Part shown: positions 20,160-51,602 of the stretch, one piece after another | Position numbering within the stretch: the stretch's first letter is position 1 | Layout: every line of letters starts with the position of its first letter | NCBI RefSeq assembly: GCF_901686465.1 | Contig: NZ_LR594487.1 | Location: forward strand, 2,105,650-2,169,649 | Source of the DNA: Halorubrum sp. DM2 | Lineage (GTDB): Archaea > Halobacteriota > Halobacteria > Halobacteriales > Haloferacaceae | Reading direction: 5' to 3' | DNA: 64,000 nucleotides | Notes under the pieces: model-generated | Seen by the model: the letters and a program-made list of their open reading frames with translations, nothing else | What the model was told of the DNA's origin: nothing | Databases searched by the model: none | Made by a program: the position numbers and the translations under genes

Positions 20160-20257
20160 CGAATTCGAACCTACCGATCGGCGTCTCGTAACTGCGACCG
20201 TTGTCACCTTCGTCGCCCGCCGATACTTCGCCGACAGTGGGCACACGAACACTCTCG

Positions 20258-20477
20258 AAGCCCTAGTCGCTCGGCTGTACGTAACTGCTTATAAGTCACC
20301 GATCGGGACGAACACCCTCGCGGCTGCCCCTTCGAGTCCCGCCCCGCTCCGCACAGCACCGCACCTCACGCCTCCCCAGCCTCGTCAGTCGCCTCCGCTT
20401 CGCTCCGGCGACTGACTCCCTCGCACCGTCGGTTCGCGGCCCTTCGGGCCGCTCACCGGGGCGCGCCACCGCGACGG
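20258..20477 (+). repeat. Dispersed structured intergenic element, copy 1
   Basis: About 220 bases homologous to the reverse complement of 51341-51602. Shared anchors are CTGCCCC, CGCACAGC, CCTCCCCAGCCTCGTC, ACTCCCTCGC and CTCACCGG. Hairpin A pairs GTCAGTCGCC (20384-20393) with GGCGACTGAC (20407-20416). Hairpin B pairs GCGGCCC (20436-20442) with GGGCCGC (20446-20452). Both stems are kept in the other copy by compensatory changes. An outer stem is weak here. The rest of the 20160-20537 gap shows no gene. Confidence 0.75.
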
Positions 20478-50041: not shown

Positions 50042-51310
50042 ATGTCCCCTGTCACGGTCGACGACGTCGAGACCGCCGCGGAGCGGGTCGCCGATACCGA
50101 CATCGTCCAGCGCACGCCCGTCGAGCGGAGCCGGTCGCTGAGCGAGCGGTGCGGGGCGGACGTGCGCCTCAAGATGGAACACCTCCAGCGTACCGGCTCG
50201 TTCAAGACGCGCGGCGCGTACAACGCGATCTCTCGGGCAGTGGAGGGGTCCGAGGGGAGAGAAGGATCCGACGAGCCCGCGGTCGAACGCGTCGTGGCCG
50301 CAAGCGCGGGCAACCACGCGCAGGGGGTCGCGCTGGCGGCGGCGGACGCCGGGATCGACGCGACGATCGTGATGCCGGAGGCCGCGCCGGCCGCGAAGAT
50401 CGAGGCGACGCGCGCCTACGGCGCGTCGGTCGTCCTCCGGGGGAACGCCTTCCCCGAGGCGATGGCGCACGCGCAGACGCTCGTCGACGACCCCGGGACG
50501 CGGTTCGTCCACGCGTTCGACGACCCCGACGTGGTCGCCGGACAGGGGACGCTCGGGCTGGAGGTGATAGAGCAGGTGCCCGACGTCGACGCCGTCCTCG
50601 TCCCGGTCGGCGGCGGCGGGCTGGCGGGCGGCGTCGCGACCGCCGTCAAGGCGCGCTCGCCGGAGACGCGCGTGATCGGCGTCCAGACCGAGGGGGCGTC
50701 GACGCTCTCCGAGAGCCTCGCGGCGGGCGAGCTCGTCGCGCGCGAGGAGCCGGACACCATCGCCGACGGGATCGCGACCGGCGGGCTGAGCGACCTCACG
50801 TTCGGCCTCCTCGACGAACACCTCGACGCCGCCGTCGTCGTGAGCGACGACGACGTGGCGAACGCGATCCTGCTACTCCTAGAGCGCGCGAAGCAGATGG
50901 TCGAGGGCGCGGGCGCGACCGCCGCGGCCGCGCTCCTGAACGACGACGCCGTCGACGAACTCGACCTAACCGGCGAGACGGTGGTTCCCCTGCTCTGTGG
51001 CGGGAACATCGACGTGACGACGCTGAAGGAGGTGGTGACCCACGCCCTCGTGGACCGTCACCAGCTGATCGAGCTCGCCGTCCGGATCGACGACACGCCC
51101 GGGACGATGGGAGAGATATCCACGCTGATCGGCGGCGAGCGCGCGAACATCCGGACGGTACGCCACGAGCGCAGCCGACCGGACCTCCCCGTCGGCGACG
51201 CCGACCTCGTGTTCGAGGTGGAGACCAACGGCCCGGCCCACGTCGACCGCGTCCTGAGGGCGGTGCGCGAGGCGGGCTACGAGGTTGAGTGGACGACCCA
51301 GGAGGGGTGA
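50042..51310 (+). CDS. ilvA: Threonine ammonia-lyase
   Basis: 422 residues. PLP lysine in RTGSFKTRGAYNAIS, ASAGNHAQGVALAAADAGID, and VPVGGGGLAGGVATAVKARS identify the fold-type II dehydratase; a C-terminal ACT domain (LIELAVRIDDTPGTMGEIST) suggests feedback control. Makes 2-oxobutanoate for isoleucine. A short acidic insert (EGSEGREGSDEPAVER) follows the lysine motif. ATG 50042. Confidence 0.92.
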   Translation: MSPVTVDDVETAAERVADTDIVQRTPVERSRSLSERCGADVRLKMEHLQRTGSFKTRGAYNAISRAVEGSEGREGSDEPAVERVVAASAGNHAQGVALAAADAGIDATIVMPEAAPAAKIEATRAYGASVVLRGNAFPEAMAHAQTLVDDPGTRFVHAFDDPDVVAGQGTLGLEVIEQVPDVDAVLVPVGGGGLAGGVATAVKARSPETRVIGVQTEGASTLSESLAAGELVAREEPDTIADGIATGGLSDLTFGLLDEHLDAAVVVSDDDVANAILLLLERAKQMVEGAGATAAAALLNDDAVDELDLTGETVVPLLCGGNIDVTTLKEVVTHALVDRHQLIELAVRIDDTPGTMGEISTLIGGERANIRTVRHERSRPDLPVGDADLVFEVETNGPAHVDRVLRAVREAGYEVEWTTQEG

Positions 51311-51340
51311 GGAACCGTGCCGGTTACTTATAAATGGACA

Positions 51341-51602
51341 CGGCGGTGGCGCGCCGGTGAGCGCCGCACCGCGGCGCGAACCGCCCGCGAGGGAGTCGGC
51401 CGCGACGAGGGCGACCGAAGGGAGCCCGACGGACGCGGCCGACGAGGCTGGGGAGGCATGAGGCTGTGCGGTGCGGTCGGGTGGGACTCAAAGGGGCAGT
51501 CGGCGAGGCGGGCGCAGGCGACGCAAGGACCACAGGGAGTGAGCGAAGCGAACGACCGAGGACCGCAGCGAGTGTGCGCCCGCCTCGCCGACTGGGGCTT
51601 TG
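51341..51602 (-). repeat. Dispersed structured intergenic element, copy 2
   Basis: Reverse-oriented homologue of 20258-20477. On the plus strand, hairpin B is GCGCCGC (51361-51367)/GCGGCGC (51371-51377), hairpin A is GTCGGCCGCG (51395-51404)/CGCGGCCGAC (51434-51443), and a further perfect 20-bp inverted repeat (51497-51516 with 51575-51594) encloses a 58-base loop. TATA-like stretches flank it (ACTTATAAATGG at 51326-51337 and ATTTATAAGTGG at 51628-51639). No gene is evident in it. Confidence 0.75.

Follow-up and report, generated by a model that had tools for sequence, protein, structure and literature searches.

An old, dispersed palindromic repeat of Halorubrum appears to be an archaeal counterpart of the bacterial interspersed palindromic repeats

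BOX elements of streptococci are modular repeats of about a hundred copies with a variable number of units and a stable fold, and the attC sites of integrons, which operate as a single folded strand in cassette arrays together with an integrase, keep their structure despite sequence variation in their stems. The REP/BIME elements of bacteria are associated with TnpA_REP/RAYT (PMC2817692, PMC3116915, PMC6006769). From Archaea, the IS200 subclass alone of TnpA_Y1 has been reported (PMC6006769), and palindrome-associated transposable elements (PATEs), whose defining feature is palindromes near the termini that are related to IS605-type elements, reach about 180 copies per genome in Haloquadratum (PMC3119063). 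Here we describe a repeat of about 215–260 bases with approximately 140 copies in the chromosome of Halorubrum sp. DM2; a literature search of open-licence papers returned no earlier description of this family. The element appears to be old and largely immobile and, instead of being an ordinary folded-RNA gene, to represent an undescribed counterpart in archaea of the interspersed palindromic repeats known from bacteria.

With REP/BIME elements the haloarchaeal repeat shares more than 100 dispersed, intergenic palindromic copies, a preference for gene 3′ ends, a short fixed sequence next to a variable complementary stem and a mosaic build. It differs from them in its size of a few hundred bases instead of 20–40, in its three hairpin slots and long anchors, and in having neither the GTAG/GGAG tag nor a RAYT; the tetranucleotide is not found at the stem feet, which read CCTC-GTC...GAC-TCCC and CCCCAG...CTGCCCC. 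The element thus lies outside REP/BIME in the strict sense, as it also lies outside the known RNA families. The likeness to BOX is one of description, BOX retaining the sequence of its modules whereas the haloarchaeal element exchanges that of its hairpins.

The window, the whole stretch of 64,000 nucleotides that was analysed, comprises positions 2,105,650–2,169,649 of the host chromosome (G000:C1), a single 3.45-Mb contig. A preceding sequence-only reading had proposed that two of its intergenic stretches are inverted copies of each other, and sequence comparison bears this out, the plus strand of copy 1 (about 20256–20472) being homologous to the minus strand of copy 2 (51602–51343). The features of both copies, in window coordinates, are as follows.

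20256–20472, plus strand: complete extent of copy 1, which is damaged towards 5′ and has lost the greater part of the long hairpin A; CGCGCCACCGC at its 3′ end forms the sharp border of the family
20256–20260, plus strand: P1 5′ strand CGAAG, copy 1; the same motif recurs in the upstream units of other copies
20330–20334, plus strand: P1 3′ strand CTTCG, copy 1; in copy 2 and its orthologues the covarying pair reads CAAAG/CTTTG
20324–20340, plus strand: conserved segment CTGCCCCTTCGAGTCCC, copy 1; columns mostly invariant, kept in other genera too
20364–20383, plus strand: anchor CCTCACGCCTCCCCAGCCTC, copy 1; contains the invariant CCTCCCCAGCCTCGTC
20384–20416, plus strand: hairpin slot B, GTCAGTCGCC...GGCGACTGAC, copy 1; hairpin A of the sequence-only reading
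20417–20424, plus strand: anchor TCCCTCGC, copy 1; invariant
20422–20465, plus strand: hairpin slot C/D, copy 1; hairpin B of the sequence-only reading
20462–20472, plus strand: 3′ terminus CGCGCCACCGC, copy 1; conservation ends here, A preferred next
51343–51602, minus strand: copy 2, whole element; antisense, starts 33 nt past position 51310, where the threonine deaminase gene ends
51497–51594, minus strand: hairpin slot A (long 5′ hairpin), copy 2
51598–51602, minus strand: P1 5′ strand CAAAG, copy 2
51489–51493, minus strand: P1 3′ strand CTTTG, copy 2
51395–51443, minus strand: hairpin slot B, copy 2

The slot B hairpin reads GTC-AGTCGCC/GGCGACT-GAC in copy 1 (20384–20416) and GTC-GGCCGCG/CGCGGCC-GAC in copy 2 (51443–51395), and the three compensated pairs claimed for it (A-T to G-C, T-A to C-G and C-G to G-C) can be read directly in the sequence. 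Two further compensated pairs are equally visible in the inner stem of slot C/D, which is CGCGGCC/GGCCGCTC in copy 1 and CGCGCCG/CGGCGCTC in copy 2; both hairpins are contained in the predicted fold of copy 1. The flanking anchors, previously described as conserved and single-stranded, are indeed conserved and flank the covarying hairpins, but CTTCG (20330–20334) pairs with CGAAG (20256–20260) and this pair covaries. Likewise, the two copies exist but are not alone, copy 1 being merely one member of a family of about 140 and a damaged one, in which a TTATAA-bearing stretch has taken the place of most of the long 5′ hairpin that copy 2 keeps (51497–51594). TTTATAA-like motifs flank the copies of the window (e.g. 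20288–20295 and 51325–51333) and may constitute a promoter, a terminator or an old target.

A BLAST search of copy 1 against its own genome retrieved 40 copies besides itself with 79–94% identity, and the 16-base anchor CCTCCCCAGCCTCGTC, allowing up to two mismatches, matched the genome 155 times compared with 10 matches of a reversed control. A covariance model of the element core (R1; 154 positions and 26 pairs, built on 35 copies) yielded 141 hits on the host chromosome, 71 on the plus and 70 on the minus strand, on the basis of which a strand bias along the chromosome was rejected. All 34 other Halorubrum genomes were positive in a first search of relatives, with at least 16 to more than 50 copies each, and over the whole order hits were obtained in 48 of 146 genomes, which amounts to 16 of the 56 genera. 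Outside Halorubrum the hits are much weaker (30–66 bits) and represent diverged relatives in 15 other haloarchaeal genera; carriers include Haloparvum, Haloarchaeobius and Halosimplex and also two Halobaculum plasmids. The anchors are the same in other genera, e.g. CCTCAC-CCTCCCCA(A/G)CCTCG, TCCCTCGCGCG and CGCGCCACCGC.

The analysis drew on sequence stretches surrounding the copies, about 380 kb in total. From 5′ to 3′ the element consists of the P1 strand CGAAG, CCCC, hairpin slot A (about 60–180 nt, sometimes with extra hairpin cassettes), CTGCCCC, the P1 strand CTTCG followed by AGTCCC, a variable A/C-rich linker, CCTCACRCCTCCCCAGCCTC, slot B, TCCCTCGC, slot C/D and the terminal CGCGCCACCGC. 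The anchors amount to about 60 nt in total and are conserved across haloarchaeal families. At the 3′ side the border is sharp, with A as the next base in 57 of 91 copies, and the 5′ side is ragged, 0–4 more degenerate units repeating CGAAGCCCCAGCCG. In many copies (e.g. at 76,800–77,000 of the host chromosome) these upstream units are spaced by 51, 54, 57, 63, 66 or 69 nt, 81 of 85 spacings being multiples of three, and one of their frames, AEAPAARLYDAV...TET, contains hardly any stops (9, compared with 71 and 72 in the remaining two forward frames). A present-day gene was rejected as an identity of the units because the three codon positions vary about equally, a start codon is often missing and the frame enters the hairpins. 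TTATAA-like motifs are over-represented, far above background, 25–34 nt before the 5′ motif and 5–14 nt past the 3′ end. On the bottom strand of all copies (e.g. 51343–51602, plus strand) the hairpins are flanked by G runs (GGGG, GGGA, GGGGAGG), which may give rise to quadruplex-duplex hybrids in a cytoplasm as rich in potassium as that of haloarchaea.

Covariation is strong throughout the family. In the core alignment 95.2% of the cells are paired, one-sided stem changes are few and nearly all changes are double-sided; the 119 double-changed cells compare with a mean of 39 after shuffling (none of 500 shuffles was as high) and with at most 20 in slid controls, whose pairing reached at most 45%. 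When the hairpin B arms were exchanged between copies, pairing dropped from 95.2% to 69.4% (maximum of 73.2% in 1000 shuffles), and among the orthologues of copy 2 it amounts to 85% with the own arm versus 59% with swapped arms (maximum of 72% in 2000). P1 is present as CGAA/TTCG in 124 copies, as CAAA/TTTG in at least 45 and in a mixed form in 4. The argument that five compensated pairs would be unlikely by chance is hence upheld by the pattern matches, the model hits and pair counts above shuffled and all slid controls; many more copies with compensated changes exist, and covariation stands far above the background given by these controls. The accompanying claim of selection on the fold holds in the wider form that selection or some other process acts on it.

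If the functional molecule were an RNA or one folded strand of DNA, G·T mismatches should be tolerated on that strand to a far greater extent than A·C mismatches. In a comparison whose sequences are not independent of each other, hairpin B contains 8 G·T versus 7 A·C mismatches in the host copies and 20 versus 25 in the relatives, and the outer stem of hairpin A contains 11 versus 17 if one leaves out its first position, which belongs to a motif whose conservation has another cause; in hairpin D mismatches are almost lacking. An A·C excess in hairpin A was rejected, as it mostly originates from one position within the repeated CAGCC motif and vanishes once this is removed. A small control of 9 tRNAs gave 105 Watson-Crick pairs, 3 G·T and no A·C. 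Being rare and symmetric, the stem mismatches of the element follow the pattern of double-stranded DNA palindromes and favour neither strand. The one-strand folding, with G·T above A·C, that is expected of PATE and IS200-IS605 elements is therefore not found, and the strand symmetry also departs from the single folded strand of attC sites, whose cassette arrays and integrase were not seen here either.

These data bear directly on the regulatory RNA that the sequence-only reading had named among its possibilities. A family of structured RNAs, be it a free-standing non-coding RNA under a promoter of its own or an element of 3′ UTRs, in which one strand folds and the conserved C-rich unpaired segments are recognised, would be in line with the long conserved unpaired segments alongside covarying stems, the covarying P1 and the strong predicted folds (z of −3.2 and −5.0). 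It would also suit the gene on the 5′ side, which is directed into the element in 73 of 112 copies, and the TATA-like motif found upstream in 21 of 110 copies compared with 3% in the background. However, the gene points away in 38 copies, and a TATA motif precedes 9 of 37 of those; hairpins invert, stem changes are nearly all double-sided, and strand-specific wobble intermediates are not encountered in hairpins A and B. A search of the window against Rfam detected two tRNAs only, the element matching no family at the gathering threshold; matches at relaxed thresholds were chance microRNA hits, which were discarded, and complementarity of the anchors to the rRNA operon never exceeded 9 nt. A resemblance of TTCGAGTCCC to a tRNA T-loop was also dismissed, because a T-arm stem partner is missing, the sequence is TTTCAKTCCC in other genera and the segment pairs with CGAAG. 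Since G·U is not in excess over A·C on either strand, a TATA box at the right distance is missing in most copies and whole hairpins are replaced instead of being compensated stepwise, the RNA reading is unsupported and we regard it as rather doubtful.

The fixed parts of the element are its anchors, the three hairpin slots and the short closing helix P1; the contents of the slots are replaced, inverted, swapped between slots or extended, with self-complementarity kept. Hairpin B occurs in 65 distinct sequences among 98 copies, loops are inverted in 3 cases versus 72 in the usual direction, hairpin A is inverted in one copy, C/D-type hairpins also occupy slot B, and additional hairpin cassettes are found in 22 of 112 copies. 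Multi-hairpin cassettes (CATCAGAACGC..GCGTTCTGAT; GAGAATCGAAGATTCTC; GCCGGCGGC..GCCGCCGGC) recur within the slots at different loci and in different species and look as if they were independently mobile.

The site of copy 2, antisense and about 35 nt past the threonine deaminase gene, carries a recognisable element at the same place and on the same strand in 24 of 30 Halorubrum species; in three further species the copy is partial or cut off by a contig end, and one of these is reduced to a short remnant. Most of these orthologues have the diagnostic CAAAG/CTTTG form of P1 in common and their anchors are near-invariant, but hairpin B takes 17 distinct sequences in 21 of them, each still palindromic. 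Preservation of site, P1 and anchors with differing hairpins implies vertical inheritance with turnover of the hairpins only, and the positions of the element can be as old as the genus. A paralogous threonine deaminase-like gene (2,021,215–2,022,049 of the host chromosome) is, as at copy 2, followed right after its stop by an antisense element. Template switching predicts symmetric mismatches, inverted loops and slot swaps, and element losses do occur, so that the repeat could be conceived as an old, slowly decaying product of mutation without function, whose hairpins are kept self-complementary by palindrome correction and recombination. We consider this very unlikely, because the anchors, in contrast to the hairpins, are nearly invariant over 24 orthologues and are recognisable in other families of the order, which needs purifying selection or continued amplification.

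All but one of 112 examined copies are intergenic, with an enrichment in the gaps of convergent gene pairs (41 of 111 versus 33 of 192; p = 1.7e-4); the gene calls come from a simple script based on codon usage, which makes the exact distances approximate. Where copy 1 lies, the element is common to six near relatives, while other species have an antisense copy elsewhere in the gap or none; these differences indicate gains or losses within the genus. A non-autonomous mobile element of PATE/MITE-like or rolling-circle type, mobilised in trans and now mostly dormant and decaying, would explain this variation, as well as the sharp 3′ end followed by A, the ragged 5′ side, the roughly 140 dispersed copies and the remnants left after deletion. 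PATEs are likewise haloarchaeal, devoid of transposase, terminal inverted repeats and target duplication, and provided with palindromes near their ends (PMC3119063), but are set apart here by description: palindromes fill the present element, their sequence is free and one position is kept across the genus. The element is too short to encode a transposase, and inverted terminal repeats are absent, the 5′ CGAAGCCCCAG not matching the reverse-complemented 3′ end GCGGTGGCGCG. We agree with the earlier observation that neither a transposase nor a target-site duplication is visible; no clean empty site was found, so that a short duplication is only partly excluded. A Y1 transposase gene (PF01797) is missing from 6 of 23 Halorubrum genomes, nearly complete assemblies among them, all six of which carry the element, and an IS200/REP transposase was accordingly rejected as its driver. 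Near-identical recent copies are not present (79–94% identity), phage records contain no element and only three plasmid records carry it. A 356-kb stretch of the host chromosome (1,016,124–1,372,176) is also free of the element (p = 2e-4); its G+C content is 56–62% in three samples versus 68–70% elsewhere, it contains a ParA-like gene and probably represents a genomic island or an integrated replicon. The density of the element could mark the core chromosome. Of the suggested mobility, the variation of sites between lineages over the age of the genus remains, against which stand at least one site fixed across most of the genus and accessory DNA without the element; a mobile element appears unlikely to us.

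The best explanation, to which we attach an even degree of confidence, is an interspersed palindromic repeat of mosaic build that belongs to the haloarchaeal core chromosome, acts at the DNA level and is comparable in kind to bacterial REP/BIME. For its maintenance we infer extrusion and re-templating or exchange of the palindromes, an anchor-binding factor and a role between transcription units. Palindromes might extrude as cruciforms, or as hairpins on separated strands, upon unwinding of the DNA, especially at converging gene 3′ ends. One arm could then template the repair of the other, or a whole hairpin might be cut and repaired from another copy, and such arm- or copy-templated repair would rewrite the sequence and preserve the palindrome. 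A putative haloarchaeal factor would recognise the anchors beside a hairpin of any sequence, for which reason the anchors are proposed to be conserved, and turn the element into a landmark between transcription units, perhaps serving as a supercoil or read-through barrier or as a nucleoid contact. Least certain in this DNA-level explanation are the factor and the function. Moreover, the anchors with their 60 nt or so exceed the usual length of a DNA-binding site and would fit an RNA, and the site differences from species to species leave room for slow mobility.

A more far-reaching version, which we put forward only as a tentative possibility, is a haloarchaea-wide dispersed cruciform system with its own recognition factor, selected for hairpin formation between fixed anchors and not for sequence. 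An active process would re-template or exchange cassettes among the approximately 140 sites, perhaps in chromosome organisation or in the separation of transcription units.

Covariation, which is commonly accepted as proving a functional RNA fold, is strong here without the strand signature of an RNA; the probable cause is that entire palindromes are rewritten at one stroke, and this is a warning for covariation screens. The archaea gain a REP-like family of about 140 sites, of which at least some are as old as the genus, whose hairpin turnover can be traced locus by locus and whose recognition factor can be searched for.
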